Part shown: piece after piece, positions 50-32,527 of the stretch
Layout: every line of letters begins with the position of its first letter
Position numbering within the stretch: the first letter of the stretch is position 1
Origin: a virus
IMG/VR virus record: IMGVR_UViG_3300017971_000589
Location: 1-33,156 of that record
DNA: 33,156 bases
Strand: one strand, 5' to 3'
Notes under the pieces: model-generated
What the model was told of the DNA's origin: nothing
The model's database searches: none
What the model saw: the letters and a program-made list of their open reading frames with translations, nothing else
Translations under genes and position numbers: made by a program

Positions 50-1777
50 TCACTGAATGCTGATTGTTCTGATCTCATTCAACACAACCACTGTCCTTGC
101 TTCTGATGCAATGACAATGGACCTTGAATCTGGTGTGACTATTGGTGCTGCTCCACTGTATGTCAGGGTGGCATCATATCCAGTGTGTATATAAGAATCT
201 GCTGATGCAGTGAGCAGTTTGCCTGCCAGCAACCCTGCTGCCTGACCTGTGTGCAGGTAGGATCCAACCCCTGCAGTAGTTTTGAATCCCTTCAGTAATG
301 CTGCAGCCTGACCTGTGGTGGTGTATGTTCCCTGCCCTGCTGATATGGATCTATCAACAGACAGTCCTGCAGCCTGACCTGTGGTGGTGTATGTGCCTGC
401 ATCACAGGTGATGGTGTATGTGGTGCCTGAATAGACAAGGCCTGCATCATATCCATCTGTTTCATAGAAACTTGCTGTTACATATAAATAATCCCAATCT
501 GCATCAAGTGTGAACCCACTCAATGAAACTTGTTGTGAGAATGCAGTTGCAACATCAACAAAACTTATATGTGTTCCTGCACTTGTGTTGAAAGGAAGTG
601 CAGCATTTCCTGCAACAACACCATAAAAACTGCCTGACACATATCTACTGCAATGGATTTCTACTTTATACCTTGACCCATTCTGAAAAGTTTCCCTGTT
701 TCGTAATGCAGTTGCATTACCTGCAGCACTGCTGGTGGTTGTTAGTTTGCCACCAGTAACATTGAAGTTGACGGGAAGACTCCAAGAACCCGCATCATCA
801 AAATCAGGGTCAAAGAATGCAGATCCACCTGCTGCAATGTACCTGCCAAATAAAAGATCTGCAGCAACCCCTGTCTGTGCATAGGATCCTGCACCTGCAG
901 TCAGTGTGTAATCTGTGCCTGAATAGACAAGATCCGCATCATTTCCTGTCTGCACATAGGATCCTGCACCTGCTGAAATGGATCTTCCAATAGTCAGGGA
1001 AGAATCCTGACCTTCTATTTCATAGTAGTTTTCCCAAACATTGACAGATGAAACTGTTCCTGTGAATGCAATTGCACCTATTATTTGAAGTGTTTGAGGA
1101 ACTGGTGATGTGACAGGTGTGACTGTTCCTGACCATGTTCCTGTTTGTGTGTTGTAACCTGTGCTGCCTAATGTATTACCCAACCAGAATGAATGAATAC
1201 CTGTTGTTGCAGAAGGAACCACATATTCATATTTATATTTTTTCTGTTGGATTGTTGATCTAAGAATGTTGGCATCTGCTGATTCATTTGTACTGCTGCC
1301 AATCAGTGTGCCTGCAGCAATTGACCAACCTGCACCAAGGGTCCATTCATTTGCATCATCAAATGACCAGTCCTTTGCAATACTGTGCCCAATATAGATC
1401 CTGTGTCCAAAGACAAGATCTGCTGATTGGCCTGTTGTTGAATAGGTGCCTTGGTCAGATGAAATCAACCTGGCGGCAGTCAGGTTGGCTGCAACACCTG
1501 TTTGTGAATAGGTGCCATTGGCAGCAGTCAGAATCACCCCTTTCTGAAGGTTTGCCGCGTATCCTGTTGTGGTATAGGTGCCCTTGTCTGCAGATAGGTT
1601 GAACCCTTTCTGAAGGTTTGCAGACTGACCTGATGTTGTATAGGTGCCCTTGTCTGCAGTCAGTGTATAGGCACCACCTGCAGAAGTTTCAGTGTTTAGG
1701 ATCCTTCCGTTATGAAGGGCAAGTTGATCACCATCTTCATAGAAGATCCTTCCATTGATTAAATATAGTTTTGCCAC
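50..1777 (-). CDS. Repeat-rich virion protein, probably tail fibre/appendage
   Basis: A 575-residue protein made largely of about ten copies of a roughly 22-residue unit. The unit has the form [L/I]-[S/T]-A-x-x-G-[T/S]-Y-x-x-T-G-x-x-A-x-L followed by a short linker. Copies sit at residues 39-125, 265-315 and 455-540. Two similar insertions of about 120 residues (135-255 and 322-440) each begin with an Asp-rich segment followed by W and look like beta-sandwich (carbohydrate-binding-like) domains; that is inference. The start is GTG at 1777, one base after the upstream stop; I see no strong Shine-Dalgarno. It is last in a block of tail-fibre-like genes, so a surface-exposed virion role is likely. 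Similar Gly/Tyr/Thr-rich repeats are common in phage structural proteins, but I cannot name a family. Confidence 0.7.
   Translation of the reverse strand: MAKLYLINGRIFYEDGDQLALHNGRILNTETSAGGAYTLTADKGTYTTSGQSANLQKGFNLSADKGTYTTTGYAANLQKGVILTAANGTYSQTGVAANLTAARLISSDQGTYSTTGQSADLVFGHRIYIGHSIAKDWSFDDANEWTLGAGWSIAAGTLIGSSTNESADANILRSTIQQKKYKYEYVVPSATTGIHSFWLGNTLGSTGYNTQTGTWSGTVTPVTSPVPQTLQIIGAIAFTGTVSSVNVWENYYEIEGQDSSLTIGRSISAGAGSYVQTGNDADLVYSGTDYTLTAGAGSYAQTGVAADLLFGRYIAAGGSAFFDPDFDDAGSWSLPVNFNVTGGKLTTTSSAAGNATALRNRETFQNGSRYKVEIHCSRYVSGSFYGVVAGNAALPFNTSAGTHISFVDVATAFSQQVSLSGFTLDADWDYLYVTASFYETDGYDAGLVYSGTTYTITCDAGTYTTTGQAAGLSVDRSISAGQGTYTTTGQAAALLKGFKTTAGVGSYLHTGQAAGLLAGKLLTASADSYIHTGYDATLTYSGAAPIVTPDSRSIVIASEARTVVVLNEIRTISIQ
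1403..1663 (-). repeat. Tandem protein repeats at DNA level in the 575-aa gene
   Basis: Four consecutive copies of the roughly 22-residue unit (residues 39-125) are encoded here. At the DNA level near-identical blocks recur about every 65-75 bases, for example the stretches around 1575-1620 and 1640-1662, which share a 'gtgcccttgtctgcag' core. This suggests recent tandem duplication or gene conversion. Further, more diverged copies lie near the 3' end of the gene (about 160-420). Confidence 0.75.
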
Positions 1778-1778
1778 T

Positions 1779-3182
1779 TCAACTGAGTGTCAATATTGGG
1801 TGAATAAACAGATCCCCTGCAGCAATGTTTGCCTTGTACACTTCAATCCTGATTGACACTGCTGTTGCCTGTCCTGCATCACCAGATGTGTCAAGTTCCA
1901 TCTTGTAAAAGTTTGCAGATGCAGGTTCACCAGTCCAATCAGCAGCACCAAGGGCAGATGCTGACAGGGCAGTCCCTGCAGACAATGGATCATTGCCATA
2001 GTTGCCTGCACCAACAGACTTGCCTGATGTCACCCAATTTGCCTGAAGTGCTGTGGTTCCATCTGGATAGACAAGGAAAGCAGCAATGTCAGTGTCAGTC
2101 AGTGACAGGGCAGTTGAATCAGTGACCAGATCCAATGTCAGGACATCACTACCTGCTTCTGACAGGTTCACATACTGAGCAGGTATTTCAAAAACAAATG
2201 GACAGGAATGCTTACAATCAGCAGATGTTGTGACTTCAATGGATGACTGTGCTGACCCTTCATACCATGCTTCACCAGCAGTGACATAGGTTGAATCATT
2301 GTTTTTGGCAACACCAGCAATGTCAGCAATCATGAACCTGTGAAGGGCATCCCCTGTGCCATCATCACAGTTGAACATTTCAAATCTTTGATACAGTGAA
2401 CCAAAACTTGCAGATGAAGGCAAATTTACTGATGCATTCAGTTTGCAGTGTTTCAGCCTGACAAGGGTATTATCTGCAGTCCTGCCTATTGATGGATGAA
2501 TATTTGCGCATGGTGACAGGTCTACACCTTCAATCAATAATGTTGCACCACCACCACTGCCAAAGGCACCAAACATGTCATTCCTTGTTGAAAGCAGTGA
2601 CCCACCATGCCAGTCAACAACACATCCATTGATTATCCCAAAAATATCAGCATTTGAAGCATTTGAATCAATGTCAATGTTTAGAAGTTTGACTGATCCA
2701 CCATCGGCACCAATATAAAATGCATAATCCCCTGTTCCATCAACCGTGATGGTTCCATCCTGCATCACCCATGATGGTTCATGGCCAGTTGCTCTGATGA
2801 CATCATCACCTGTTTCATAAGAAACACCAGCAGACAGACAATTATTCTGGAAATAAAAGTCATCTGCAGTGTCTGACAGGTTTTCTGATGCGCCAGGTTC
2901 ATACTGATCAATATTTGTGTCATCAACACTGATGATATGAACACCTTCAGGGACAACAACATTTCCACCATTGTCATAAGTAGCAGCATGATTGCTGGCA
3001 ACATAGATCACATCACCTGCTGATGGTGATGTTCCTGTGATTGCTGCACCAATATCAGCATAGACATTGCCAGCAGTCAGGGCAGTGATGTTGCCTGTTT
3101 GCTGTGATGCATAGGATGTGTCACTTCCACCTGTATTGGTTCCATGGACACCAGATACATAAATGTGTGGATTTGATGCCAT
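1779..3182 (-). CDS. Putative beta-helix tail spike/appendage protein
   Basis: A 467-residue protein rich in Gly, Asn, Asp and Ser. Its short hydrophobic strands alternate with turns (for example around residues 135-260: a T-I-T-V-D-G-T-G pattern, then K-L-L-N-I-D-I-D, then L-L-I-E-G-V-D), which resembles a right-handed parallel beta-helix. No signal peptide or membrane segment is present. The C-terminal third (about 330-467) reads as a compact beta domain. It lies immediately upstream of the repeat-rich protein and downstream of other tail-type genes, so a tail-spike or fibre role is inferred from context and composition only. No catalytic residues are recognisable. Confidence 0.55.
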   Translation of the reverse strand: MASNPHIYVSGVHGTNTGGSDTSYASQQTGNITALTAGNVYADIGAAITGTSPSAGDVIYVASNHAATYDNGGNVVVPEGVHIISVDDTNIDQYEPGASENLSDTADDFYFQNNCLSAGVSYETGDDVIRATGHEPSWVMQDGTITVDGTGDYAFYIGADGGSVKLLNIDIDSNASNADIFGIINGCVVDWHGGSLLSTRNDMFGAFGSGGGATLLIEGVDLSPCANIHPSIGRTADNTLVRLKHCKLNASVNLPSSASFGSLYQRFEMFNCDDGTGDALHRFMIADIAGVAKNNDSTYVTAGEAWYEGSAQSSIEVTTSADCKHSCPFVFEIPAQYVNLSEAGSDVLTLDLVTDSTALSLTDTDIAAFLVYPDGTTALQANWVTSGKSVGAGNYGNDPLSAGTALSASALGAADWTGEPASANFYKMELDTSGDAGQATAVSIRIEVYKANIAAGDLFIHPILTLS

Positions 3183-3185
3183 GAA

Positions 3186-3701: not shown

Positions 3702-3703
3702 GA

Positions 3704-4126: not shown

Positions 4127-4128
4127 AA

Positions 4129-4425
4129 TTAATCACCCCTAATAGTTACATTCACGAAAAATGACCTTGATTCGGTCCTTGGAGTTGCTGCATCAGTGAC
4201 AATGGTATTAGTCACCCTGTAATTTCTTCCAATAGATCCACCAGACAACCAGATTGTTGCAGAATCTGTGTCATTGGTGTCACTGTCCTTTGTCAGTCCA
4301 GATTCAACCTGCCAGGTTGATGATGTAATGCCTTCCCCTGTATCCAGCCAATCAGACCAGTCATGTTTATAATCAAGAACTGCTTCGGGTGTTTTCTTGA
4401 ATGTTGTTTCAATATCAGATGACAT
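4129..4425 (-). CDS. Putative fibre-tail adaptor protein
   Basis: A 98-residue beta-rich protein with the sequence features D-Y-K-H-D-W-S-D-W-L near residue 18, S-T-W near 37, and R-S-F-F-V-N-V near the C terminus. These match what I know of the small phage fibre-tail adaptor family, which join tail fibres to the tail. The ATG at 4425 lies inside the end of the HNH gene (11-base overlap), so the two are translationally linked. Its place at the head of the fibre-type block fits the adaptor call. Confidence 0.6.
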   Translation of the reverse strand: MSSDIETTFKKTPEAVLDYKHDWSDWLDTGEGITSSTWQVESGLTKDSDTNDTDSATIWLSGGSIGRNYRVTNTIVTDAATPRTESRSFFVNVTIRGD

Positions 4426-4795: not shown

Positions 4796-4819
4796 TTCAA
4801 ACCCCCTTGAATGTCTGGA

Positions 4820-5832: not shown

Positions 5833-5836
5833 ATGG

Positions 5837-6055
5837 TCAGGATGCCTTTTCAAACTGTATTGAATTCAACCATTCAGACTTTTCATCTTCAGGCAGCAGG
5901 TTGAAAATTGACATTGCAACATCAAAACGGGGATCAACCTGGCAGGCACCAGATGAAATTTTGCTTATATATCCTTGTGTTACACCTGCAGAACTTGCAA
6001 TTTCTGCCTGTGTATAACCAAGTTCATTCAGTCTGTTTATGATTTCATTCCACAT
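5837..6055 (-). CDS. Small Cro/CI-type HTH transcriptional regulator
   Basis: A 72-residue protein with a classic helix-turn-helix at residues 14-36: Y-T-Q-A-E-I-A, then A-G-V-T-Q-G-Y-I-S-K-I. It is the size of a Cro or a stripped-down repressor and has no LexA-type peptidase domain, so RecA-triggered self-cleavage is not expected. It diverges from the early operon. Its own promoter candidate is TTGACC-N16-TACACT. An operator-like site lies just upstream of its start and another sits within the opposite early promoter, consistent with autoregulation plus control of the early genes. Which of the two states (lytic or lysogenic) it favours cannot be read here. Confidence 0.85.
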   Translation of the reverse strand: MWNEIINRLNELGYTQAEIASSAGVTQGYISKISSGACQVDPRFDVAMSIFNLLPEDEKSEWLNSIQFEKAS

Positions 6056-6232: not shown

Positions 6233-6406
6233 ATGACCACATACACATACAGAAAGATTGAAGCAGGTAAAAGGAACACGTTTTTTGAAATCCTTGCTGA
6301 TGGTGAAAAGATCTATCAAAGGTTTGAGACAGAAACCAAAGCAAAGGAAGCAGTTGATCACTATAACAAGACACAGCCACAAAGAAGTGTTGCATACGGC
6401 AACTAA
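6233..6406 (+). CDS. Small early protein, first gene of rightward operon
   Basis: A 57-residue basic protein, not recognised. ATG 6233 is chosen because GGAGACAGGG lies just upstream, whereas the in-frame TTG at 6218 has no ribosome site. The pattern (Y-R-K-I-E-A-G, then F-E-I-L-A-D-G-E, R-F-E-T-E-T-K-A-K-E-A-V) suggests a small beta-beta-alpha fold similar in style to short DUF-type early phage proteins. It is the first gene after the early promoter and may have a regulatory or host-interaction role. Confidence 0.7.
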   Translation: MTTYTYRKIEAGKRNTFFEILADGEKIYQRFETETKAKEAVDHYNKTQPQRSVAYGN

Positions 6407-6431
6407 TTCAATCAGACAAAGGACAGGGAAA

Positions 6432-6746
6432 ATGAAATTCAATCAGACAAATTGCACAGCAGGGAAAAAGTCACCTTGGACCATTGATGAAATCAATGCC
6501 TGTTGGGATCTCTATTGGTCATTTCTTCAACATCAACAGAATGGTGAAAAGTATGTCAAGGCACCTGCCATCAGGGAACTTGCCGCGAAAATTGGCAGAA
6601 GCAAAGGCAGTGTTGAAGCAAAAATGATGAATATGTCAGGTGTTCTTTCAGAAATGGGGTGTGACTATGTTTCAGGATTCAAACCCCTTCCAAACTGCCA
6701 GAAACTTTTGAAGGAATTCATCAAAAAAGTTGTGGAGTGCAAATAA
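6432..6746 (+). CDS. DNA-binding protein (HNH-associated N-terminal-like domain)
   Basis: A 104-residue protein starting at ATG 6432, preceded by AGGACAGGG. It contains a W-T-I-D-E-I-N-A-C-W-D-L-Y-W segment at about residues 15-28. After a helix there follows I-R-E-L-A-A-K-I-G-R-S-K-G-S-V-E-A-K-M-M-N (about 47-67). This resembles the helical DNA-binding domain often fused N-terminally to HNH or restriction endonucleases, where the conserved R-S-x-x-S-V-x-x-K-x-x-N stretch is typical. Here no nuclease domain follows, so a regulator or recruitment factor is plausible. Confidence 0.65.
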   Translation: MKFNQTNCTAGKKSPWTIDEINACWDLYWSFLQHQQNGEKYVKAPAIRELAAKIGRSKGSVEAKMMNMSGVLSEMGCDYVSGFKPLPNCQKLLKEFIKKVVECK

Positions 6747-8075: not shown

Positions 8076-8825
8076 ATGAAATCAACCTGGCGCATGCTGG
8101 ATTGCTTTGCAGGCATTGGTGGTTTCAGTCTTGGTTTTCAGGCTGCAGGAATTGAAACCTGTGCCTTTGTTGAAAAGGACAAATACTGTCAGAAGGTTCT
8201 GAAAAAACACTGGCCTGAATTGCCAATAATTGAGGATATAAAACATGTCACAAAGGAAAGATTTGATTCAGATGGAATTGATACCCCAAACATCATCTGT
8301 GGCGGGTTCCCATGCCAAGACATATCAACAACCAAAGTACATGGAAAAAGATCAGGAATCCATGGAAGCAGATCAGGATTGTTTTTTGAATTGTTGCGAG
8401 TTGTTAGCGAAATTAGACCAAAATACTTGGTCATGGAAAATGTCACAGGGTTGCTTACTGGAAACAATGGGCAGTGGTTCGGGAGAATCCTTTCTGAATT
8501 GGAACAGGTCGGGTATTGCTGTGAATGGCATTGCATACATGCTGCCAGTTTTGGTGCCATCCATCAAAGGGATCGAGTCTGGTTTATTGCCCACCCCAAC
8601 AGCAAGGGATTACAAGGACGGGAAAAAACCATTTTACAGAAACGGCATATTACAGAAGGACACACTAGGCAGGGCATTAGGTGGCAGTCCAAATCCAGAA
8701 TTTGTAGAGTGGCTGATGGCATTCCCAACAGGGTGGACAGACTTAGAACACTAGGAAATGCGATTTTCCCGCCAATTGCAGAATGCATTGCAGGAGCAAT
8801 TATTGAACATGAAAAATCTAATTGA
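8076..8825 (+). CDS. DNA (cytosine-5) methyltransferase
   Basis: A 249-residue protein carrying the C5-MTase motifs in order: motif I L-D-C-F-A-G-I-G-G-F at 8-17 (AdoMet binding), motif IV G-G-F-P-C-Q at 76-81 with catalytic Cys80, motif VI E-N-V at 121-123, motif VIII Q-R-D-R-V-W-F at 164-170, and a motif X-like L-G-N-A-x-x-P-P-I-A-E at 226-236. The region between VIII and X, which reads the target, is only about 50 residues, so this is a short monofunctional enzyme. No restriction partner lies beside it, so it is probably an orphan protecting phage DNA. Its recognition site cannot be read from sequence. The same DNA is also open in the +1 frame (8245-8754), where the end resembles a conserved segment of other phage MTases. 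Confidence 0.93.
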   Translation: MKSTWRMLDCFAGIGGFSLGFQAAGIETCAFVEKDKYCQKVLKKHWPELPIIEDIKHVTKERFDSDGIDTPNIICGGFPCQDISTTKVHGKRSGIHGSRSGLFFELLRVVSEIRPKYLVMENVTGLLTGNNGQWFGRILSELEQVGYCCEWHCIHAASFGAIHQRDRVWFIAHPNSKGLQGREKTILQKRHITEGHTRQGIRWQSKSRICRVADGIPNRVDRLRTLGNAIFPPIAECIAGAIIEHEKSN

Positions 8826-9022: not shown

Positions 9023-9239
9023 ACTTCCAACATCGCCAGGTTGGTATTGGCGTTTGTTTTGGCGTGAAGCAGATGCAATACCGCATGTTGTTTACATCTG
9101 CAACATACCATCATTGCCTTCATTGGGTGTGATGACTACCAACAGCATTGATTGGAATCCATTAGAAGACTTTGATTCTAGGGAATGTGCATGGATCAAA
9201 ATTGAAGAACCACCACAACACAAGGGACAGCCTAAATGA
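9006..9239 (+). CDS. Hypothetical early protein, Trp-rich
   Basis: A 77-residue protein, unrecognised. ATG 9006 (M-N-W-F-H-E-L-P) is preferred over the in-frame 8991 because GGGTGG lies just upstream. It has nine Trp/Tyr residues (P-G-W-Y-W-R-L-F-W near the N terminus) and ends E-C-A-W-I-K-I-E-E-P-P. The W-x-E-L-P-x-x-P-G-W-Y-W opening is frequent among small phage proteins of unknown role. Confidence 0.6.
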   Translation: MNWFHELPTSPGWYWRLFWREADAIPHVVYICNIPSLPSLGVMTTNSIDWNPLEDFDSRECAWIKIEEPPQHKGQPK

Positions 9240-9578: not shown

Positions 9579-10460
9579 ATGCTGACTGCTGAACAGAAAG
9601 CAGAAAGAATGCAAGGCATTGGTGGCAGTGATGCTGCCACTGTCCTTGGTTTCAATCCATACAAAACACCATATGAACTATGGGCAGAAAAAACCGGAAA
9701 GGTTGAACCTGATGATCTGTCTGATCAGAAGAACATCATTTTTGGTCATGCACTTGAACCTGTAATTGCTGTCATGTATCAGGAAGAAACAGGCAACAAG
9801 GTCAGAAGGAACAACAAAACACTGACCAATGACAAATATCCCCTGTTGATTGGTCACATTGACAGGGATGTTGTCGGGCAGAAGAAACTGTTGGAAATCA
9901 AAAATGTTGGTTGGAGAATGAAAGAGTATTGGGGCCAACCTGGCACTGATGAAGTTGCATCCTATTACTTGCCACAGGTCCATGTTTACATGATGTTGCT
10001 GGACTATGAATCAGCAGATGTTGCTGCATATTTTGGTGGTGATGATCTTGCCATTTACACTGTTGAAAGAAATGAAAGGTTCAACACAGTCATGTATGAC
10101 AAAATCCATGATTTCTGGAATGACTATGTTGTTTCAGATGTTGCGCCACCAATGGACTATGGACAAAGATCAACAACAGAATTCCTGAAACGTTTATATC
10201 CTGATGTTGAAGATGTTGAAGTTGATCTTTCAACAGATCTGTTTTATTGGCACAAGGTAAAACTTGATGCACAGAATCAGGTGAAAAAGTATCAGGCTGT
10301 GGTTGATGGTTGCACTAACAGAATCAGGCAAGCAATGGAAACTGCCAACTTTGGCAGGTTCCCTGATGGAAGTGGATACACAAGGAAAGTGGTCAAAAGA
10401 AGGGGATTCACAGTTGAACCTAGTGAATATGTGAAACTAACATTCAAAAAAGGGGAATAA
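9579..10460 (+). CDS. YqaJ-type viral recombinase exonuclease
   Basis: A 293-residue PD-(D/E)XK nuclease of the YqaJ/lambda-exonuclease family. It has the family opening G-I-G-G-S-D-A-A at 13-20, followed by P-Y-E-L-W at 31-35. Glu60 lies in H-A-L-E-P, Asp95 in I-G-H-I-D, and Glu106/Lys108 in L-E-I-K. L-P-Q-V-H-V-Y-M-M follows at about 130. Family members digest 5' strands of duplex ends to expose single-stranded DNA for a partner annealing protein, here the RecT-like gene two genes downstream. The ATG lies one base after the previous stop; a GTG four codons upstream is an alternative start. Confidence 0.9.
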   Translation: MLTAEQKAERMQGIGGSDAATVLGFNPYKTPYELWAEKTGKVEPDDLSDQKNIIFGHALEPVIAVMYQEETGNKVRRNNKTLTNDKYPLLIGHIDRDVVGQKKLLEIKNVGWRMKEYWGQPGTDEVASYYLPQVHVYMMLLDYESADVAAYFGGDDLAIYTVERNERFNTVMYDKIHDFWNDYVVSDVAPPMDYGQRSTTEFLKRLYPDVEDVEVDLSTDLFYWHKVKLDAQNQVKKYQAVVDGCTNRIRQAMETANFGRFPDGSGYTRKVVKRRGFTVEPSEYVKLTFKKGE

Positions 10461-11684: not shown

Positions 11685-12186
11685 ATCAAGGGCAGAACAG
11701 ATGGCACCACAACAACCAGCAATCACACTGACAGACCTTGAATGCAGGATTGCCACTAATGCTGGCAGGGTCATTCATAATCAACACAAGAACAATGGAA
11801 CACCCGATAAAAAAATCACTCCCAAAGATGGGTTGAAAATCCTGATTGATGGTATTGCTGCAGAAATGGCAATCGCCAGGTTGCTGAATATCTATCCACT
11901 AACAATGACAGGTGAAGTCAAAATTCATGATCTGATCAAAGATGGAATGACAATTGATGTCAAGAATGCCTATGGCAGAAACCATGGATTGCTAGTGCCA
12001 AAGCACAAGTTTGATGAAGGAAAGACATGTGACATTTACATTTTGACAATTGGTGAAATGCCACATTTTGAATTTAAAGGGTTTGCATTTTCACAGCAGG
12101 TGTTTACAAAGGAAAATATCACTGATCTTGGATATGGACCAACATATCTATTGGATCAGTGGAAACTGTCAAAACACCTTCCTTGA
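11677..12186 (+). CDS. Possible PD-(D/E)XK-fold nuclease, last early gene
   Basis: A 169-residue protein not firmly recognised. It has a helix with an acidic residue (I-A-A-E-M-A-I-A-R-L-L, about 66-76), then T-I-D-V-K-N-A at about 91-97. After that comes L-L-V-P-K-H-K, D-I-Y-I-L-T-I, and F-E-F-K-G-F. The order Glu-helix, D-x-K strand, hydrophobic strand resembles small PD-(D/E)XK nucleases of phages. Nothing biochemical can be read directly. It is the last gene before the early-operon terminator. Confidence 0.55.
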   Translation: MYRSRAEQMAPQQPAITLTDLECRIATNAGRVIHNQHKNNGTPDKKITPKDGLKILIDGIAAEMAIARLLNIYPLTMTGEVKIHDLIKDGMTIDVKNAYGRNHGLLVPKHKFDEGKTCDIYILTIGEMPHFEFKGFAFSQQVFTKENITDLGYGPTYLLDQWKLSKHLP

Positions 12187-12888: not shown

Positions 12889-13304
12889 ACTGCCACCCCT
12901 GATGCCATCATCTGTGCCAATTCCTGTGCCCTGCCACCAACTTGATCTGCCCAAACACTATTCAACATTTCTGCTGCAGCCTGATCAAATTTTCCTTCTT
13001 GAATATATCCAATGGTTTTCTTGAATTCACCAAACCCTGTCAAACCAAGATTGAAAATCATGTTAATAATGACTTCCTGCCTGACATCATCAAGTGAATC
13101 AAACCACCAAAACTTCTTTCTTGCCCCTTCAACTGCTGCTTGAATATCCTGTGATAACAGAATTCTTGCTTCACTTTGACTAATGCCAACATCTTCAAGG
13201 TTCCTGCCAATACCAATTGTCAGTTTTCCAACTGTGTCATGGTACGGAAACTGTTTGAACCCTTCATGCTTCACCAGTGTTTCTGTCAGTCGCGCCAGGT
13301 TCAT
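12885..13304 (-). CDS. Endolysin, GH24 (T4-type) lysozyme
   Basis: A 139-residue muramidase. The GH24 catalytic pattern is intact: Glu14 in H-E-G-F, Asp23 in Y-H-D-T, and Thr29 in L-T-I-G-I-G, with the canonical 8- and 5-residue spacings. A-R-I-L-L-S and F-N-L-G-L-T-G-F follow as expected. ATG 13304 is chosen because it overlaps the upstream stop as ATGA; an ATG 15 bases earlier is possible. No signal peptide or anchor is visible, so export should depend on the holin. Confidence 0.92.
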   Translation of the reverse strand: MNLARLTETLVKHEGFKQFPYHDTVGKLTIGIGRNLEDVGISQSEARILLSQDIQAAVEGARKKFWWFDSLDDVRQEVIINMIFNLGLTGFGEFKKTIGYIQEGKFDQAAAEMLNSVWADQVGGRAQELAQMMASGVAV

Positions 13305-19273: not shown

Positions 19274-21055
19274 TTATCCATTCCTTCTTTGTGCAAGGTT
19301 GAAACCCCTGCCAATATCCAAACCTAATTGGTTTCCTGTTCTTCCTGCCCTTGCCACATCATCACCCTGAATGTTGATGGTCATGTTCAAACCACCCATC
19401 TGTGACATGGGTGTCACAGTCCCTGCAACTGAAGGTGTGAATAATTCAGGTTCACCACCATCACCAACAATGACAGATTCACCTGCAGCAACATTGCCAC
19501 CTGCAGCAAGTTTCCTTGGACCTTGAAAGAAACCCGCCAGGTTGGAAGCAAAACCACCACCGGCAAAGGATCCTGCAAGACCTGAAAGCAATTTTTCTGC
19601 TGCAATCTGTGCAACCATTTTCCTGATCATGTCACTGAAGGAAGTGAGCATATCATTCAGACTGCCTTCAAATGGATTGAACAGATAGTCAGCAAAAACA
19701 GATTGCATGTTTCTTGCCATCTGAATACCAAACTGTTCAAACTGATCAACCTTTTCCTTTGCAGCCTGTGCCCGTTTATCAAGAATGTCTTGGTATTTCT
19801 GCTGTGTCTCCAATGAAACCCTGATGAATTCCTTTTCATGATTGGTCAAACTTCTGCCAAGTCTTTCAGATGCATCTGCAACAGCATGTTCAATCTGCAG
19901 TCTTCTTGCCGTCAGGTTGATATAGTCCTTCTGTCCCTGAACCTGTGCCTGCAAGATTTCCTGCTGTCTGATCATTGCAGTCCTGATTGACTTCCATGCA
20001 TCAACAGTCCCTTTCTGTTCATCAGGTGTGCCACCTATAGGGGGAACACCACCAGACCCATCACCCCTTAATTCTTTCAGTCTTGCAATTACTGAATCAA
20101 TTTCATCCCTTAAATCAGAATACCTTCTTCTCATTTTGGCAATCTGACCACCTCTAAGATTTCCAGTATCCTGAAGTGCAGTGCCAAGTTTGACTGCTCT
20201 TTCCTGAAGTTCAGTCAGTCTTTGTTCAAGACCTTGAATGTTCTGTTTCTGTGAAGTGTCCCTGAAATAATCAAAGAACTTTGAAACCCAATTTGCCGCA
20301 ATAGCAAATGCCCTTGCAAGGTCAACCATCACAGGTGCAAGTTGTGCCATTGCAGGTGTTGTGATTGCACTGACAACCCTTGACATTGCAGCAAGTTGTT
20401 TTGATGCCTTGTCTGCTTCCCTGATGACACTGCTGTTGATGACAGCACCCATGGATTCAGCATCAGATTCAAATTGCTTGATTGCAGAACTTCCCTGCTG
20501 CAACAGTCTGACAAGATCTACGCCTTCAGTGTCAAACAACTGAAAGGTTTTCAGGATCCGCTTGCCCTGATCATCTGACCTGGCGATTGCATCACTAAAT
20601 TCATAGAACAGATCAACATTGGTTTTCAGCCTGCCTTCACCATCTGAAAGTTTTATGTTGAACTGGTCAAATGTTGCTGCAAGTTGTTTGTTCCCTGCTG
20701 CAGCATCTGCAACCCTTCTTGTGAATCTTTGAAACCCAACATCAAATGATTTGACACCAACACCTGCCTGTTCTGCAGCAAATCTTAGTGTCTGCAACTT
20801 GTCTGTTGTCAATCCAAGTTTGTCTGCCTGATCAGAAATATTGGAAAGGGCATCTGCTGCCTGCTTACTTCCCCGCAACAAACCAGCACCAAGGGCAGTG
20901 CCAAGGATGGCACCAATTGAACCTGCTGCCTTTGATGCTATGCCCTTTATCCGGCGCATTTTTTTTTGGGTCATACGTTCAGCGCGTGACATTGCACGTT
21001 CAAAACGTGTGATCCTTGCATCAAGGTCAATGACCAGTCTTCCTAAACCTGCCAT
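19274..21055 (-). CDS. Tail tape measure protein
   Basis: A 593-residue protein that spans the tail tube and sets its length. Long charged helices and coiled coils dominate. A hydrophobic stretch at about 42-62 (A-A-G-S-I-G-A-I-L-G-T-A-L-G-A-G-L-L) may help membrane passage during DNA injection, and the C terminus is Gly-rich (A-G-S-F-A-G-G-G-F-A). It follows the frameshifted chaperone pair, the canonical position. At about 0.15 nm per residue, a known rule of thumb, a tail near 90 nm would be expected. ATG 21055 lies three bases after the chaperone-extension stop. Confidence 0.9.
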   Translation of the reverse strand: MAGLGRLVIDLDARITRFERAMSRAERMTQKKMRRIKGIASKAAGSIGAILGTALGAGLLRGSKQAADALSNISDQADKLGLTTDKLQTLRFAAEQAGVGVKSFDVGFQRFTRRVADAAAGNKQLAATFDQFNIKLSDGEGRLKTNVDLFYEFSDAIARSDDQGKRILKTFQLFDTEGVDLVRLLQQGSSAIKQFESDAESMGAVINSSVIREADKASKQLAAMSRVVSAITTPAMAQLAPVMVDLARAFAIAANWVSKFFDYFRDTSQKQNIQGLEQRLTELQERAVKLGTALQDTGNLRGGQIAKMRRRYSDLRDEIDSVIARLKELRGDGSGGVPPIGGTPDEQKGTVDAWKSIRTAMIRQQEILQAQVQGQKDYINLTARRLQIEHAVADASERLGRSLTNHEKEFIRVSLETQQKYQDILDKRAQAAKEKVDQFEQFGIQMARNMQSVFADYLFNPFEGSLNDMLTSFSDMIRKMVAQIAAEKLLSGLAGSFAGGGFASNLAGFFQGPRKLAAGGNVAAGESVIVGDGGEPELFTPSVAGTVTPMSQMGGLNMTINIQGDDVARAGRTGNQLGLDIGRGFNLAQRRNG

Positions 21056-22085: not shown

Positions 22086-22892
22086 CTATGTGAACCACTG
22101 TGAAAAATCATATTGAACAACAAACAAACGTGTTTCTGTTTCATACCATTCACGTTTGTTGATGGGTACATATTCATTGGCTGATGAATCTGCCAATGCC
22201 AACCTTGCCTGCTCTGCTACATCATCAACAATTTCAAGTGTATTTCCAAAGGCAGACAACTGGTATAAATTGTTTTCAACACCTGTTCCACCCGCATCAG
22301 TCAATGGAACCTGGCGATTGCCTGAAACAAGTTGATATATCAGATAGGGTGTTTCAACCCCCTGTGGTGCCACAGATGGATACACCCTATAGGTTTCAGG
22401 TGAATCACCATTACCAAGCAATGCCTGAAGACCGGCAAAGGAAATCAGGTCTGAATACAGTTCTGCACTAGACATCTTTTCCACCCATATTTTATTGATT
22501 GAAACCTGACCATCACCAAATGCCTCTGGTCCTGTGTCAGTGATCCTGAAATCAGTTCTGTTGGTAAAGTCAGCAACTGCAACAAATTCATATACACCAT
22601 CAGCAGTGATGATCTGTGTGGTTGATTCACCTTCCCCTATTTGCACCTTTAATGAAAGGGTTTCCCATATTCCAAAAACATTCAGGAACATATGAACCCT
22701 GTCACCATGCTTGATGTCAGTTCCATCAAAGGTGCCAATCAATGATGTTTCATTTATAGAAATTCTGGAGAAATACCCAACATCCCCGAATTCAGACCAA
22801 TGATCTGGTCCATCTTCAGTGGAATCATCCCACCCTGCAGGGTCAAAGTTAGCAATGCCAAATATCATGATGTATAAAATGAAATGTTTCAT
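22086..22892 (-). CDS. Tail terminator (DUF3168) with extra N-terminal beta domain
   Basis: A 268-residue product starting at ATG 22892, coupled by ATGA to the gp10-like gene. The C-terminal 129 residues (from Met at 22475) look like a complete DUF3168 tail-completion protein (A-E-L-Y-S-D-L-I-S-F-A, then T-P-Y-L-I-Y-Q-L-V-S-G, then V-V-Q-Y-D). The N-terminal part of about 138 residues has a hydrophobic start (F-I-L-Y-I-M-I-F-G-I-A), then a Trp/Asp-rich beta-sandwich-like region resembling a carbohydrate-binding module. A GGTGG ribosome-like site six bases before 22475 suggests the DUF3168 part may also be made alone. The fusion is unusual. Confidence 0.75.
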   Translation of the reverse strand: MKHFILYIMIFGIANFDPAGWDDSTEDGPDHWSEFGDVGYFSRISINETSLIGTFDGTDIKHGDRVHMFLNVFGIWETLSLKVQIGEGESTTQIITADGVYEFVAVADFTNRTDFRITDTGPEAFGDGQVSINKIWVEKMSSAELYSDLISFAGLQALLGNGDSPETYRVYPSVAPQGVETPYLIYQLVSGNRQVPLTDAGGTGVENNLYQLSAFGNTLEIVDDVAEQARLALADSSANEYVPINKREWYETETRLFVVQYDFSQWFT

Positions 22893-23789: not shown

Positions 23790-24382
23790 TAGAAGAATTC
23801 CGGTATTGACAGGGATTCAATCAACCTGTCTGCAAATGGCATCTTTGCCGCAATGGTGCCAACAATATATTCTTCCCGGTTTTCATACAGGTTTGCAATC
23901 TGAATCAACATCCATCTTTTGATGACTTCAGGAACATTGTCATTTATTTCTGCAGGTGATGAACCTGAGTCTGCATAACCACAGACAAACCTGATTGTAA
24001 CTGCCTGCAACTGTTTTCTTGTGTCAGGCCAAACCTGATCAGGATCAAGGATCACCCTGCCAGGTTGACTGTCAGTGTCAACATCATAAACAGATGAATC
24101 AACTGTTTGTTCATTTCCATCAGTGTCAATGTATTTGATTGATGTGACTGACTGCAGTGGTGGTTTTGGAATCTTGATGACAGATGCAAACCTGTCAATT
24201 TTATAGTCATATGTTGCAGTGATTAACTGTCTTCTAGTGAAGGTTTCTGCAAGATGTTCAACTGATTCAATCATTGATTGAATGAGTGCATCATCATCAT
24301 CAATTTCAAGTCTGATGTGGTCCTTTGCATCTGACAAGGAAATTGAATTGCCTGTTGGTGCTGTAATTTGTGTCAGTGACAT
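23789..24382 (-). CDS. Head-tail connector (HK97 gp6-like)
   Basis: A 197-residue protein with the connector signature L-S-D-A-K-D-H-I-R-L-E at about 15-25, then D-D-D-A-L-I-Q-S-M-I, L-A-E-T-F-T-R-R-Q-L, and a C-terminal helix containing L-Y-E-N-R-E-E. It forms the ring between portal and head-closure protein. It overlaps the sulfotransferase gene upstream by 10 bases. Confidence 0.88.
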   Translation of the reverse strand: MSLTQITAPTGNSISLSDAKDHIRLEIDDDDALIQSMIESVEHLAETFTRRQLITATYDYKIDRFASVIKIPKPPLQSVTSIKYIDTDGNEQTVDSSVYDVDTDSQPGRVILDPDQVWPDTRKQLQAVTIRFVCGYADSGSSPAEINDNVPEVIKRWMLIQIANLYENREEYIVGTIAAKMPFADRLIESLSIPEFF

Positions 24383-25845: not shown

Positions 25846-25846
25846 T

Positions 25847-26455
25847 TTATGCTTCCTTTAAATACTCTCTTTCTGAACCATGCCCATCAATTTCATAATG
25901 AAAATCAAATTCCATCATTAGGGCATCACCAGTATATGTGTCTGCAGCATCACCACCAATCCTTGAAAGTTTCATGGCAAACATGGAACTGATCCCCATG
26001 CCTTCACCTGTGATTGGTTGAAATGCTGAAATTTGTGAAAGACTGCCTGAAGAATAATTAAACACTTTTTTGACTGTTTGAAGTGTTGTGAAGTCTGCAG
26101 GATATTCTGCACCATTGTTGAACCATTTAAAATCAAGTTGCCACAGGACATCACCTGAATTTTCCTGTACCCAATGAATATGTGGATGCAGTGTTGATCC
26201 TTCATTGTAGTTGTGTGGCAGTTGACCAAGAATGAAAAGAAGTTCAGTGGAACCATCAGCAAACAACCAACCACCCCTGATGGTATCAAAGTCAGGATCT
26301 GATGCTGAACCTGGCGGGTTGATTGCAGTTGCTGGAAATCTTAAATCATCAAAATGAATTGATGAACAATGGTCAGCAGTTCTTTTTGCACCATCAGATG
26401 TCAGGCCTGCAATTTCAGACCAACCCGGTTCTTTGTATAAAGTTTGTGTAACCAT
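25847..26455 (-). CDS. Putative jelly-roll-like virion protein
   Basis: A 202-residue protein with L-P-H-N-Y-N-E-G-S-T-L-H-P-H-I-H-W at about 78-94. This His-rich 'EG...HPHIHW' motif recurs in phage proteins of the head region. W-Q-L-D-F-K-W-F follows, and it ends M-M-E-F-D-F-H-Y-E-I-D-G. The predicted fold is beta-rich. It lies immediately downstream of a terminator, so its level is probably lower than that of the capsid genes. It may be a minor head or fibre component. Confidence 0.55.
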   Translation of the reverse strand: MVTQTLYKEPGWSEIAGLTSDGAKRTADHCSSIHFDDLRFPATAINPPGSASDPDFDTIRGGWLFADGSTELLFILGQLPHNYNEGSTLHPHIHWVQENSGDVLWQLDFKWFNNGAEYPADFTTLQTVKKVFNYSSGSLSQISAFQPITGEGMGISSMFAMKLSRIGGDAADTYTGDALMMEFDFHYEIDGHGSEREYLKEA

Positions 26456-26965: not shown

Positions 26966-26977
26966 GATATTACCCCC

Positions 26978-28315
26978 TTATGCCCTTGCGGCCAATGTCA
27001 CAAAGTGTGCAAGGGTATTGCTGCCTGCACGTTTTGCAATGGTTGTGTTGAAATGTGGTTGACCTGCAACCCTGAAAATAAACCGGAATGCAGTAGTGTC
27101 ATAATCAAACCACAGGTGAATACTGACATCTGACCGAATACCACCAGTCTTCATGATGGTCAGATACTGTGACATGTCAGAAAGGATGATGTCACCCTTG
27201 TCACCAAGGGTTTCACATGCTTCTGTTGGTACAACAGGCCTGCCCATCAGTGTTCCATATGGGGAAGAAGACAATCCACCGGGTGGAAGGTATGCCGGTC
27301 CTGCAGCATCAGTGTTCTTGAATGACATCAGGTTCAACTGTGGTTCAATGTCCTGATTGATCAGCCAGATTGCATTTCTTCGGGATGGTGCATACATCCT
27401 TGCCCACATGTTGACAATGTTCTGGTGAATCAGGGTATCTGCAGCCTGACCAGATTCCTTGGCAACAGTAATCAGATCACCACCATTCAGGATGCCTTTT
27501 GGCCGACCAACACCACTGCCCTGCACAATCGCCAGGTTCAACTTGCTGTCAAAGACTTCAGGAACCTTGGCGTTCAGGTAGGAAGACATTGCAGGTGAAT
27601 CTGCAAGCAATTCATCAGTGACAGGTACAAGGGCAGTCAGTTTGTTCAGCCTGACATTCTGTTCACCAAGAACAGGTTTGGACTGATTCAGTTGATCACC
27701 TTCACCTTCCCAATATGCCTGAACACCAGATGAACCCCATGGGGTAGTTTCATCTTTCGGCATGGTCAGGTTATTTCCTGAAACAGTCATCTGATCTGTT
27801 CGGGAAAGAAGGGAATCTTCACCCTGAACCTTCTTCATGATGCTGGTCCTGAAGTCAGGGGGCACAGTGTAACCACCATCGGCACCTGTGTTTTCATTGG
27901 CAGATGTGGTTGGTGCATTCATCAAACGTGGATCAGGTGCAACCCCCTGCTGACCGGCGTGATGGACTGCTGCAGCAAATTCACCAAGGGTTCGCCACCC
28001 CCATTTGTTGCGGTCTGCAGCCCCTGCAGGATAACCACCAGAAACAGAAGTTGCAGCAGGTTTGTCTGCATCAGGGTTGTTCAGGTCAGGCTGTGTCTGC
28101 CGTCCAACACCATTTTCAAGTTTCTGTGACATTGCAGCAATAGTGTTTTTCCGTACAATTTCACCTTCAATTTTTTCAAATTCAGCAACCATTGCCTTGA
28201 AATCACTGGTTTCATCATCAGTGAAATCACGTTTTTCAGCATCGGCAGTTGCCTGCATTGCCTGCATATCAGAATGCAGTTCCTGCAGTCTTGCCTGAAG
28301 TTCTTCAATATTCAT
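26978..28315 (-). CDS. Major capsid protein, HK97 fold
   Basis: A 445-residue protein. Residues about 1-60 form a charged coiled coil (E-E-L-Q-A-R-L-Q-E-L), the scaffold-like delta domain normally removed by the prohead protease. The body carries T-V-P-P-D-F-R, F-D-S-K-L-N-L-A-I-V-Q-G-S-G and N-A-I-W-L-I-N-Q-D-I, and ends with W-F-D-Y-D-T-T-A-F-R-F-I-F-R-V-A-G-Q. These are typical HK97-type features. ATG 28315 is used because GAGGA lies 9 bases upstream; the TTG extension is not needed. Position after portal and protease is standard. Confidence 0.93.
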   Translation of the reverse strand: MNIEELQARLQELHSDMQAMQATADAEKRDFTDDETSDFKAMVAEFEKIEGEIVRKNTIAAMSQKLENGVGRQTQPDLNNPDADKPAATSVSGGYPAGAADRNKWGWRTLGEFAAAVHHAGQQGVAPDPRLMNAPTTSANENTGADGGYTVPPDFRTSIMKKVQGEDSLLSRTDQMTVSGNNLTMPKDETTPWGSSGVQAYWEGEGDQLNQSKPVLGEQNVRLNKLTALVPVTDELLADSPAMSSYLNAKVPEVFDSKLNLAIVQGSGVGRPKGILNGGDLITVAKESGQAADTLIHQNIVNMWARMYAPSRRNAIWLINQDIEPQLNLMSFKNTDAAGPAYLPPGGLSSSPYGTLMGRPVVPTEACETLGDKGDIILSDMSQYLTIMKTGGIRSDVSIHLWFDYDTTAFRFIFRVAGQPHFNTTIAKRAGSNTLAHFVTLAARA

Positions 28316-28349
28316 GTGAAAAATCCTCAATTAATTTAAAAGTTTCCCG

Positions 28350-28407: not shown

Positions 28408-28469
28408 GACATGTGAAACCCTGCAGTTGTTTTCAGGCCTGCAAGCAAACCTGAACCTATAGGGTGAAT

Positions 28470-29147: not shown

Positions 29148-30853
29148 TTCACCCTTGCGATTGTCAATGCAAAATCCTTGAAAATGTCATTTGCTATTTC
29201 AAGCGGCCAAACATCTTCCGCCATGGTGTAGAAACTTTTCAGGTTCCCATCATCAAAGGCATCAACCAATTCATCACATGAATCAATGCAGTGTTTCTTG
29301 GCAATGCCGAATAATACTGAATTGAAATGACCAATCACGTTTTCATCTTTGCTGTCTACACCAGCAAATGCAGACATTGATTCAGCAATTGGAACCAAGG
29401 CATCAACAACATATTTTTCATGTTTTACATAAAATGCTGCCATGTGATCCCTGAATTCCTGTGATGTTGTGATTTTCTTTGGTGCCCTTTTTGCGTGATT
29501 CGATTCCCTTGAAAGACATCTTTTCATGCTGTCATTAATAAGGCTGATGTATATATTCCGCATCATGTCAGGGTTTGGTTGCTGTCCTTCTTCCTGATCT
29601 TCATCTTCCCCGCCAGGTTGCTGGAACTGCTGAACAACAGGTTCAGGTTCTTCACCCAACTTTTCAGTTGGTGTCATGTTTGTTGGTGACAGGTAAACAT
29701 CCCCTTGGTCTGCAGGCAGTGGGTCAAGATCTTCAAATTCCCTGACATCATTTGCAGACAACCAACCCCATTGCCTGCCCTTTGTATAGGCATCATAACG
29801 TTTGTCAAGGGCACCCCTTAAAAGACTATTCAGGTTCAGTTTTGTATATTGTTTTACCCTGTTCTGTCTTCCAAGTAGTTTGCGGTCCCCTTCCTGCTCC
29901 CATCGCATTGCCCATGGAACAATAGTGTCAGTGGTGAAATCAATGTTCTGTTCTTCAATGTTGCTGAAAGTTGCACGTTCAAGATCTGCCAGTTTGTGTG
30001 GCGGAACCCTGAACCATCTTGCAACATCGGAAATCTGAAACTTTCGAGTTTCCAAAAACTGTGCATCATCGGGTGGAATACCAATCTGATGGTATTCTAA
30101 ACCCTGTTCAAGAATTGCAGTCTTGCCTGTGTTGTATGGACCTGAATACATATTTGCCCATGAATCCCTTAAATTCTTTCTGGCATCATCATCCAGTTTG
30201 TTTGGATATTTCAGGACACCACCAAGACTTGCACCATTGCCAAAGAAGTTGGATCCAAATTCTTCTGCAGCAATACCAAGGCCAATTGATCTGGCAGCAA
30301 ACCCAATGACAGAATATCCAACCAGACCTGTCCCCATGCCCTTCAGGTGAAACATGTCAGATGCAGGTATTGGTGTGACACTTCCATCATCATTATGAAC
30401 AACATAGATCAGATTATTTCCTGTGTCCCTTGTGATTTCCATCCTGTCTGGTGATATGGGCCATAACCACATTGGCCTGCCTATAAGATCTCTTTCTATT
30501 TCTGCATACCCATTGCCCCAAAGCAGACACCATGCCGTTACTGTTTCCCTAAAGGTGAAAGGTGTCATTTCAGGACAGGGATTCTTCAGAACTTTGGCAG
30601 TTGGTGTTTCAGTGATTTCAGTCTTTCCACCACCATCCTTCTTTTCAAAAACCTTCCATCCAAGGGATGCAACAGTTTCTGAAATCACCCTGACAGCAGA
30701 CCATACAGGGGAAAATTCAAGTGCAGTTTCAGGTGTAACCCTGACACCTGAAGATGTCCTTCTTGGCAACCAAAGAGTGTCAATCTGCCTTTTTGGATCA
30801 GGCAGTTCTGTCACTGGTGCATTTAAAATCTGGATTCCCCTTCTTTTTTCCAT
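29144..30853 (-). CDS. Portal protein, HK97 type
   Basis: A 569-residue protein. The portal family signatures W-S-A-V-R-V-I-S-E-T-V-A-S-L-G-W at about 51-66, W-G-N-G-Y-A-E-I at about 111-118 and F-H-L-K-G-M at about 168-173 are present. F-Q-I-S-D-V-A-R-W-F-R-V-P-P-H follows near 272-286. A Gln/Glu-rich linker at about 400-430 leads to a helical C-terminal extension of some 140 residues that ordinary HK97-type portals lack. That extension may act in ejection or as a fused minor head domain. Confidence 0.92.
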   Translation of the reverse strand: MEKRRGIQILNAPVTELPDPKRQIDTLWLPRRTSSGVRVTPETALEFSPVWSAVRVISETVASLGWKVFEKKDGGGKTEITETPTAKVLKNPCPEMTPFTFRETVTAWCLLWGNGYAEIERDLIGRPMWLWPISPDRMEITRDTGNNLIYVVHNDDGSVTPIPASDMFHLKGMGTGLVGYSVIGFAARSIGLGIAAEEFGSNFFGNGASLGGVLKYPNKLDDDARKNLRDSWANMYSGPYNTGKTAILEQGLEYHQIGIPPDDAQFLETRKFQISDVARWFRVPPHKLADLERATFSNIEEQNIDFTTDTIVPWAMRWEQEGDRKLLGRQNRVKQYTKLNLNSLLRGALDKRYDAYTKGRQWGWLSANDVREFEDLDPLPADQGDVYLSPTNMTPTEKLGEEPEPVVQQFQQPGGEDEDQEEGQQPNPDMMRNIYISLINDSMKRCLSRESNHAKRAPKKITTSQEFRDHMAAFYVKHEKYVVDALVPIAESMSAFAGVDSKDENVIGHFNSVLFGIAKKHCIDSCDELVDAFDDGNLKSFYTMAEDVWPLEIANDIFKDFALTIARVK

Positions 30854-32527
30854 TTAACCCACCATCATGATGCCTTGTGTTGAATAGACTGATTCAGATT
30901 CAATGGTGATGATTGCCCTGCCTAATGCCATCAGCAATGCAACAATGCCATCAATCTTTTCAGATGATTTGGATTTGTCAGGCATGAAGTTCAAATTTGA
31001 ATCTTCCCTGACCACAACATTACTTGCCATCCATCGAAGAACAGGACACCCGCCATGGTCCAACCTGGCAGACTTCACCAGTGCTTCAAGTTCCTTGGTT
31101 GGTTCTGCCATGGTTTTATGTCCTTGACGCATTTCAACAACCTGAAATCCATCTTCCTGCAACTGAACACCTGTCTGTGTAGCATTCCAAGGATCAAAAC
31201 CTATTTCATGAATATTCAGTTCTTCTGCCATCTTTGCTATATCTTGCCGAATATAATTGTAATCTATGACATTACCGGGTGTTGCTGATACATATCCTTG
31301 CTGAACCCATGCATCATATGGGATCCGGTCGCGGTTTACCCTGTCCCTGATGTTGTCTTTGGGCATGTAGTATTTCATCAGCAGATGCCAGATCCCCTTG
31401 CTTTCAGCAGGGGGCACAAGGAATGCTGCTGCAGTCATATCAATTTTTGTTGAAAGGTCCAATCCAACAAAACACCTTTTCCCCCTTAAAATGGCAAGTG
31501 ATGAATTTGTTGGGCATTCATTCCATTTCAACATGTCCAACCATCTTGTTTCCTGCTCTGTCCAGACATTCAGATGTAATCTAAGAAAGTTATTTTGTGC
31601 AGTGATGATTTCCTTTGCCTTGGTTGCCTTCCTTTCAATATCATCTGCCTTTGCACTGATACCCCAATTTGGATTTGCCTTTGCCCAAACTGCAGGATCT
31701 GTCCAATCATCATCTTCATCAATGGCGGCAATATACCCAAAAAAGGTGTCATCCTGAAGACTGCCTTCAAGGATCTTGATCACATAATCATGATGTTCCC
31801 AACATACAGAAAGTCTGTCATGCCCTGCTGTAGTGATTTCAAATATTAGTGGTTGCCTTCTTGCACCTGTTGCCGTTTCCATGACATCAACAACCAACCT
31901 GTTTTTCATCGCATGAACTTCATCAAGAATTGCACCATGCACATTCAATCCATCCATGGTGTCTGCATCTGCTCCAAGTGGCATAAACTTTGATGCGGTA
32001 TCCACAACATGAAGGTTGTCCCTAACAATGCCAATCCTTGATTTCAGCATTGGGGATGCCTTCACCATCCTTTCTGCTTCACCATGGGTGATCCTTGCCT
32101 GATCCCTTTTGGTTGCTGCTGTGAATACTTCCGCGCCAGGTTCACCATCAGCGAAGAACATGTATAAACCAATCCCTGACGCAAAGGTTGATTTTCCATT
32201 TTTGCGGGGAACTTCAACATATGCGGTCCTGAATCTTCTTAAACCATCTTCCCTTTTCCAACCAAACAAGGACCACAGAATAAATTCCTGCCATGGGGAC
32301 AACTCGAAAACTTCACCTGCCCATTCCCCCTTGCTGTGATGCAGGAACTGGAAAAAATCAATGGCATGTTGTGCTGATTCAGGATCATGGACAATGCCCC
32401 TTTCATGTCCCGTTGCAATATCATCCTTGTGTCTTTGGCAGGCCTGAATGATGTATTCACCTGCAAGGATCTTCCCTGACAGGACATCTTCAACATACTG
32501 TTCTGCAGTGTGAAGGGATTCAGGCAT
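30854..32527 (-). CDS. Terminase large subunit
   Basis: A 557-residue motor-nuclease. The ATPase Walker A is P-R-K-N-G-K-S at 107-113 and Walker B is A-I-L-D-E-V-H-A at about 199-206. The nuclease domain begins F-V-G-L-D-L-S near 350, with F-D-P-W-N-A at about 440. This is the HK97-like (Terminase_1) group. It overlaps TerS by 8 bases and directly precedes the portal gene. Confidence 0.95.
   Translation of the reverse strand: MPESLHTAEQYVEDVLSGKILAGEYIIQACQRHKDDIATGHERGIVHDPESAQHAIDFFQFLHHSKGEWAGEVFELSPWQEFILWSLFGWKREDGLRRFRTAYVEVPRKNGKSTFASGIGLYMFFADGEPGAEVFTAATKRDQARITHGEAERMVKASPMLKSRIGIVRDNLHVVDTASKFMPLGADADTMDGLNVHGAILDEVHAMKNRLVVDVMETATGARRQPLIFEITTAGHDRLSVCWEHHDYVIKILEGSLQDDTFFGYIAAIDEDDDWTDPAVWAKANPNWGISAKADDIERKATKAKEIITAQNNFLRLHLNVWTEQETRWLDMLKWNECPTNSSLAILRGKRCFVGLDLSTKIDMTAAAFLVPPAESKGIWHLLMKYYMPKDNIRDRVNRDRIPYDAWVQQGYVSATPGNVIDYNYIRQDIAKMAEELNIHEIGFDPWNATQTGVQLQEDGFQVVEMRQGHKTMAEPTKELEALVKSARLDHGGCPVLRWMASNVVVREDSNLNFMPDKSKSSEKIDGIVALLMALGRAIITIESESVYSTQGIMMVG

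Follow-up and report, generated by a model that had tools for sequence, protein, structure and literature searches.

The 33,156-bp virus record IMGVR_UViG_3300017971_000589, from an environmental metagenome and analysed here at its full length (the window), carries 12 exact copies of a nine-base word, CGCCAGGTT. These copies belong to a set of 21 evenly spaced sites that read GCCAGGT and make up every CCAGG of the genome. The core CCAGG is at once eliminated elsewhere and over-represented in one context. Selection, or biased gain, at the level of DNA is well supported as the cause. The favoured explanation, to which we give a little less than an even chance, is that the word, B-Y-GCCAGGTT-S in consensus, marks the host lineage of the phage in the manner of an uptake sequence, with CCWGG-type restriction behind the ban on its core.

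The word and its sites

The 12 copies of CGCCAGGTT lie far above chance. Dinucleotide-preserving shuffles (n = 100) contain a mean of 0.04 and at most 1, and permutation of synonymous codons within each amino acid (200 runs, 47 genes) gives 0.24 +/- 0.46 with a largest value of 2. An order-2 Markov model expects 0.12, and the Poisson chance of at least 12 copies at a mean of 0.24 is 6e-17. Shuffles of these kinds had been proposed with the original prediction as a check on its count; the observation is confirmed, and is stronger than was stated there. In the literature the 9-mer has incidental matches only, for example in primers.

The shorter GCCAGGTT occurs 19 times against 2.5 expected, and one-mismatch forms in the window are not in excess (9 vs 6.9 expected). 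The proper unit of the site is the 5-mer CCAGG, each copy of which lies in GCCAGGT; 19 of the 21 sites read GCCAGGTT. An earlier definition, (C/T)GCCAGGTT with one mismatch allowed, was said to give 21 copies. It gives 42 matches, with a smallest gap of 4 bp and a coefficient of variation (CV) of 0.76, and the list that accompanied it departed from it by omitting, for example, CGTCAGGTT at 19910. The listed sites, with gaps of 903-2250 bp, are exactly the GCCAGGT set and equally all CCAGG:

1467..1475, minus strand: site 1, CGCCAGGTT, exact match
2891..2899, plus strand: site 2, CGCCAGGTT, exact match
4310..4318, plus strand: site 3, TGCCAGGTT, GCCAGGTT variant
5936..5944, minus strand: site 4, TGCCAGGTT, GCCAGGTT variant
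8084..8092, minus strand: site 5, CGCCAGGTT, exact match, within the start of the C5-methyltransferase gene
9034..9042, plus strand: site 6, CGCCAGGTT, exact match
9937..9945, minus strand: site 7, TGCCAGGTT, GCCAGGTT variant
11874..11882, plus strand: site 8, CGCCAGGTT, exact match
13293..13301, plus strand: site 9, CGCCAGGTT, exact match
15106..15114, plus strand: site 10, TGCCAGGTT, GCCAGGTT variant
16425..16433, plus strand: site 11, TGCCAGGTA, GCCAGGT match, weakest variant, closes a would-be 2868-bp gap
17974..17982, plus strand: site 12, GGCCAGGTT, GCCAGGTT variant
19535..19543, plus strand: site 13, CGCCAGGTT, exact match
20577..20585, minus strand: site 14, CGCCAGGTC, GCCAGGT match, variant, closes a would-be 2773-bp gap
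22308..22316, minus strand: site 15, CGCCAGGTT, exact match
24058..24066, plus strand: site 16, TGCCAGGTT, GCCAGGTT variant
26308..26316, minus strand: site 17, CGCCAGGTT, exact match
27530..27538, plus strand: site 18, CGCCAGGTT, exact match
29611..29619, plus strand: site 19, CGCCAGGTT, exact match
31062..31070, minus strand: site 20, TGCCAGGTT, GCCAGGTT variant
32134..32142, plus strand: site 21, CGCCAGGTT, exact match, same in strain contig L001

Over these 21 sites the consensus B-Y-GCCAGGTT-S reflects a base at -2 that is never A, a pyrimidine at -1 (20/21), a T as the ninth base (19/21), and a G or C as the next (20/21). No AT-rich flanks like those of Pasteurellaceae signals surround the 21 sites. 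The density is 362 per Mb for the exact word and 543 per Mb for YGCCAGGTT, within an overall range of 362-633 per Mb. Site 21 is intact in L001 despite 13 single-nucleotide polymorphisms in the surrounding 0.5 kb, but only 0.2 would be expected in 9 bp; the bases 2 bp off the site differ on both sides. L001 also has one CGCAG beside this site.

The sites use both strands (13 plus, 8 minus, P 0.38) and both senses (8 sense, 13 antisense, P 0.38). All six reading-frame combinations occur, as had been claimed, and all 21 sites lie within annotated or putative open reading frames (ORFs). Because of the two null models and the six-frame usage, chance and protein-level causes are excluded, and the view that selection acts on DNA rather than on protein holds. 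Strand and frame follow no logic, and the recognised object is double-stranded DNA. A short (9-12 nt) asymmetric word, strongly over-represented (here 12 vs 0.24) and present on both strands, is expected of an uptake sequence.

Spacing of the sites

The 20 gaps, in order, are 1424, 1419, 1626, 2148, 950, 903, 1937, 1419, 1813, 1319, 1549, 1561, 1042, 1731, 1750, 2250, 1222, 2081, 1451, and 1072 bp. Their CV is 0.255, and none of 2 million uniform simulations is as even. Of the 1050 words of 4-8 bp that occur 15-30 times in this genome, none has a lower CV; their mean is 0.99, and the next unrelated word has 0.43. The even spacing first described thus stands for the 21 GCCAGGT sites and is weak for the 12 exact copies alone (CV 0.61, P about 0.06).

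A hard exclusion radius of 900 bp accounts for most, not all, of the evenness. Random placement under this exclusion gives a P of 0.03 for the CV and 0.02 for a largest gap of at most 2250 bp; an exclusion of 1000 bp gives 0.19 and 0.07, and is violated by two of the real gaps. The weak copies at 16425 and 20577 occupy the would-be two largest gaps, and therefore an upper limit on spacing may also matter. The largest remaining gap (24058-26308) holds sulfotransferase-like and sialyltransferase-like genes (24373-25715) within the structural cluster. As a single observation, these could be recent arrivals.

The ban on the core and other avoided words

CCAGG, counted with its complement CCTGG, occurs 21 times, always as GCCAGGT. 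Each of the other 15 flank contexts has 0 copies, where the order-2 expectation is 5-15 each and about 60 in all. Codon permutation expects 65 CCAGG, with a minimum of 51 in 200 runs. Slots that lie over 900 bp away from every site make up about 3 kb and hold no other CCAGG, where several are expected.

Other words are avoided as well. Against codon permutation, AGCT (0 vs 148 expected), CCCAG/CTGGG (0 vs 58), CGCAG/CTGCG (0 vs 49), and GATATC (0 vs 24) are missing, CCTCC/GGAGG has 0 copies in genes against 41 expected, and TTCGAA, ATCGAT, and ACCGGT have 0 copies each. Several of these look like restriction sites, and because such words are banned too, CCWGG restriction pressure is a plausible cause of the core ban. 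Deamination as the origin of the ban was rejected; its product CTAGG is not raised (10 copies; the codon-independent expectation is 13-16 for CCTAG).

The composition of the genome is unusual in other respects. CpG has an odds ratio of 0.16 at 43% G+C (GC) content (462 observed vs 1631 expected by codon permutation), with TG/CA raised, and CpG is normal in the closest terminase relatives. GAG/CTC shows a roughly six-fold depletion whatever the context (71 vs 424 by codon permutation). GGAGG has one copy in 33 kb, and the ribosome-binding sites resemble AAGGGG or AAGGTG instead. An unrelated tailed-phage contig of 14.9 kb (L317), without a relative among phage records, shares the rare GAG/CTC depletion (0.16) and has no copy of GCCGGC, CCGCGG, TGATCA, or GAATTC.

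Phages with known uptake signals

Phages that carry uptake signals serve as controls. Haemophilus phage HP1 has 17 exact AAGTGCGGT in 32 kb (smallest gap 589, CV 0.52, P 0.003), with one-mismatch forms at expectation (9 vs 7.5), like the window. Aggregatibacter phage S1249 has 19 AAGTGCGGT (CV 1.06), and SuMu has 6 ACAAGCGGT. A blind scan for the most enriched dispersed 9-mer per contig, over 110 contigs of at least 12 kb, returns the known uptake signal as the top word for HP1 and S1249, and the window ranks directly behind them. Almost all of the remaining high scorers are clustered repeats, whose CVs are mostly above 1.9. Among the viral contigs, L048 (AGGTTCGCC, 23 copies) and L116 (TGCGAGCCA, 13 copies) have strongly repeated 9-mers that are clustered, not dispersed; the high-scoring GATTCGAAC of L041 (CV 0.78) resembles a tRNA arm.

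In Pasteurellaceae phages, uptake signals range from 100 per Mb, a cut-off, to saturation near 750 per Mb (PMC6776037); the density of the window falls inside this range. The uptake signals of H. influenzae are relatively even, which is ascribed to uptake-driven gain (PMC7811141; PMC1939737). The sites of the window are likewise dispersed and relatively even, with a CV of 0.255 vs 0.52 in the HP1 control. The original prediction likened the word to uptake sequences, Chi sites, and stoperators, and this interpretation is partly supported. Uptake sequences fit best; in HP1 and S1249 the same scan picks out AAGTGCGGT, which has a comparable density and, in HP1, over-even spacing. For stoperators and Chi the fit is poorer, as the orientation of the sites is unrelated to transcription or to one strand.

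The phage genome and its relatives

The window is the genome of a tailed siphophage. The minus strand encodes, from the right end, the small and large terminase, portal, ClpP-like protease, HK97-type capsid, and connectors, followed by the tape measure, DUF2460, and gene-transfer-agent-like tail proteins. The left end holds tail-fibre-like proteins, a sequence judgement without a family match. Between 6.2 and 12.2 kb, genes on the plus strand encode a C5-methyltransferase, a RecE-like exonuclease, and RecT, and there is a weak match to a D5-like regulator at 6258-6746 (E 9e-5). The methyltransferase gene is:

8076..8825, plus strand: cytosine-C5 DNA methyltransferase, 249 aa, HhaI-like (PF00145, E 1.8e-51; phrog_363, E 6e-67)

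Its target-recognition region is very short or almost absent, and it aligns with no solved enzyme there, the alignments stopping at residue 180. It is possibly, if not demonstrably, linked to the avoidance of words. The nearest homologues of the tail proteins and RecT sit in phages of Proteobacteria, and because of this a proteobacterial host is likely.

Searches of IMG/VR with the terminase, a terminase alignment, the tail protein, the methyltransferase, and DUF2460 gave about 190 further loci, with contigs of the same phage (L001/L280, L023, and L205, all from metagenome 3300017963) set apart. L001, L023, and L205 are near-identical; we take their metagenome to be hypersaline lake sediment of the Salton Sea. 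A search of related phages for the word had been suggested from the start. Beyond the contigs of the phage itself, none of the roughly 190 loci has a word excess, CpG depletion, or a CCAGG ban. Inverted-pair (terminator-like) arrangements of the word occur in 28 scattered viral contigs without concentration, and the flank-extended pattern AATCGCCAGGTTSA...CTG has, among the matches listed, chance-like matches only plus L280. In the genome collection there is one distant terminase relative, in a metagenome-assembled genome titled Frankia sp. with 66% GC. That genome carries the 9-mer 73 times over 5.4 Mb, without enrichment, and in 59 further genomes from the same phylum the density reaches about 29 per Mb at most, where the window has 362 per Mb.

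A host signature as the proposed origin

Under the favoured explanation, the word would be a tag of 9-10 bp preferred by the type IV pilus DNA receptor of a naturally competent host bacterium. Phage or prophage DNA would be taken up and recombined, and copies gained singly in this way. A segment near an existing copy would gain nothing from another, so the copies would come to lie at fairly regular intervals, whatever their strand or frame. Every CCAGG outside the tag would be lost to a second agent, in the simplest case a restriction system for CCWGG among the hosts. If the enzyme were of the two-site EcoRII type, it would tolerate well-separated tags and add to the minimum spacing. Uptake, the receptor, the competence of the host, and the identity of the restriction system are what we infer here.

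Several points weigh against this proposal. The word is known from no bacterium and matches no known uptake sequence; the window has 0 copies each of AAGTGCGGT, ACAAGCGGT, and GCCGTCTGAA. Its spacing (CV 0.26) is more even than that of HP1 (0.52) or S1249 (1.06). HP1 has no ban on the core of its own signal, and no uptake-sequence precedent explains the ban, which had been missed when the word was first described. Restriction is the weaker of the two agents, given that CCAGG is missing even where the nearest copy is more than 900 bp away, and a tag that contains CCWGG is paradoxical under CCWGG restriction unless one supposes a two-site enzyme or some protection. Among the genes searched, with about half of the small ORFs lacking a match, no integrase was found, and lysogeny, which favours the accumulation of tags, is therefore no more than a possibility. 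The searches made, which for host genomes covered the phylum of one distant terminase relative, found neither a host nor another phage with the word.

As of 2025, only Neisseriaceae and Pasteurellaceae are known to discriminate DNA for uptake by a short tag (PMC12616744). A third family with uptake tags, if true, would be notable, and would offer a comparative test of how tags and receptors arise. The regular spacing makes molecular drive testable against direct selection. To our knowledge, a favoured tag combined with a complete ban on its own core elsewhere has not been described before. Somewhat more tentatively, the window would hold either an uptake-type or genome-marking word from a third lineage, set at ~1.5-kb intervals with its core purged, or a phage system that needs a protein site every 1-2 kb.

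Alternative explanations

The main rival is a DNA-binding protein, encoded by phage or host, that needs a site every ~1.5 kb, for example for silencing in the manner of stoperators, condensation, partition, or packaging, with stray CCAGG purged because they would titrate or mislead it. It owes this standing to the fact that enrichment, spacing, and core ban would all follow from one agent. The extreme evenness, the placement of the weak variants at 16425 and 20577, and the P of 0.02 for the largest gap under a 900-bp exclusion all suit such an array. However, the orientation of the sites has no tie to transcription and all 21 lie inside ORFs, no DNA-binding candidate stands out except the weak D5-like match, and titration alone would need strong selection to purge about 60 weak sites. 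We regard this alternative as unlikely, though it deserves serious weight; if true, the phage genome would be organised in a new way.

A word resembling HIP1 is a less probable alternative, and a doubtful one. The 8-mer HIP1 is dispersed and contains a methyltransferase core, and methylation-dependent repair has been proposed as its origin (PMC4390886). The word of the window would correspondingly be a CCWGG-core methyltransferase site with fixed flanks, made and kept in the host by methylation-dependent mismatch repair or another methylation-linked process, and the phage would mirror it. It is possible because CCAGG is a classic C5-methylation site and the phage encodes a C5-methyltransferase, but the target-recognition region of that enzyme aligns with no solved one, CTAGG, the product of deamination, is no commoner than expected, and HIP1 is palindromic while GCCAGGTT is not.

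Two-site restriction alone is very improbable, and as the only cause it is already refuted. Of the enzymes that act at CCWGG, EcoRII is the best known, and it cleaves efficiently only when more than one site is present (PMC4081073); with an EcoRII-like (Type IIE) enzyme that needs two near CCWGG only copies more than ~900 bp apart would survive. The under-representation of CCAGG (21 vs 65), the smallest gap of 903 bp, the P of 0.19 for the CV under a 1000-bp exclusion, and the ban on other restriction-like words are as expected from this. Yet restriction cannot account for one 9-mer being in 50-fold excess, its survivors should have no flank preference while 21/21 read GCCAGGT, a context expected for ~4 of 65 CCAGG, and the slots beyond 900 bp are empty of the several other CCAGG expected there.

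A Chi-like signal for a host RecBCD-type enzyme, dense in the phage to protect linear DNA, is just as improbable: the word is an asymmetric, dispersed, and enriched 8-9-mer, Chi enrichment is reported for some phages, and the reverse complement CCTGGCGG is two positions off E. coli Chi (GCTGGTGG), but Chi acts in a single orientation whereas the strands here are mixed 13:8, E. coli Chi occurs once in the window, RecE/RecT of the phage's own usually makes Chi unnecessary, and Chi gives no reason for even spacing or a CCAGG ban.

Comparison with known systems

Avoidance of the EcoRII type has the CCWGG core and the well-separated surviving sites in common with the window, but it gives neither positive enrichment nor fixed flanks. 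HIP1 (GCGATCGC) of cyanobacteria is likewise a dispersed, enriched word around a methylation site; it differs in being palindromic and described in host genomes, and GCGATCGC has 0 copies in the window. The stoperators of cluster A mycobacteriophages are about 20-30 dispersed near-identical sites per phage genome, oriented with transcription and mostly intergenic. The sites of the window, by contrast, do not follow the direction of transcription (13/21 antisense, P 0.38) and all lie in ORFs, and no repressor was identified with confidence among the genes.

The DNA uptake sequences (DUS) of Neisseriaceae are short, asymmetric, dispersed tags as well. The CpG-starved composition of the window is unlike Neisseriaceae, and GCCGTCTGAA is absent. 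DUS dialects have a CTG core in common (PMC12616744), and the reverse complement of the word, AACCTGGCG, holds CTG, a weak resemblance. The uptake signals of Pasteurellaceae phages (HP1, S1249, and SuMu) differ from the word in sequence, and the window is far more even, has its core banned elsewhere, and is without an AT-rich flank. In both, however, an asymmetric 9-mer is enriched ~40-100-fold at one copy per ~1.5-2 kb on both strands, single-mismatch forms are not in excess, and, in HP1 as in the window, the copies are over-even.

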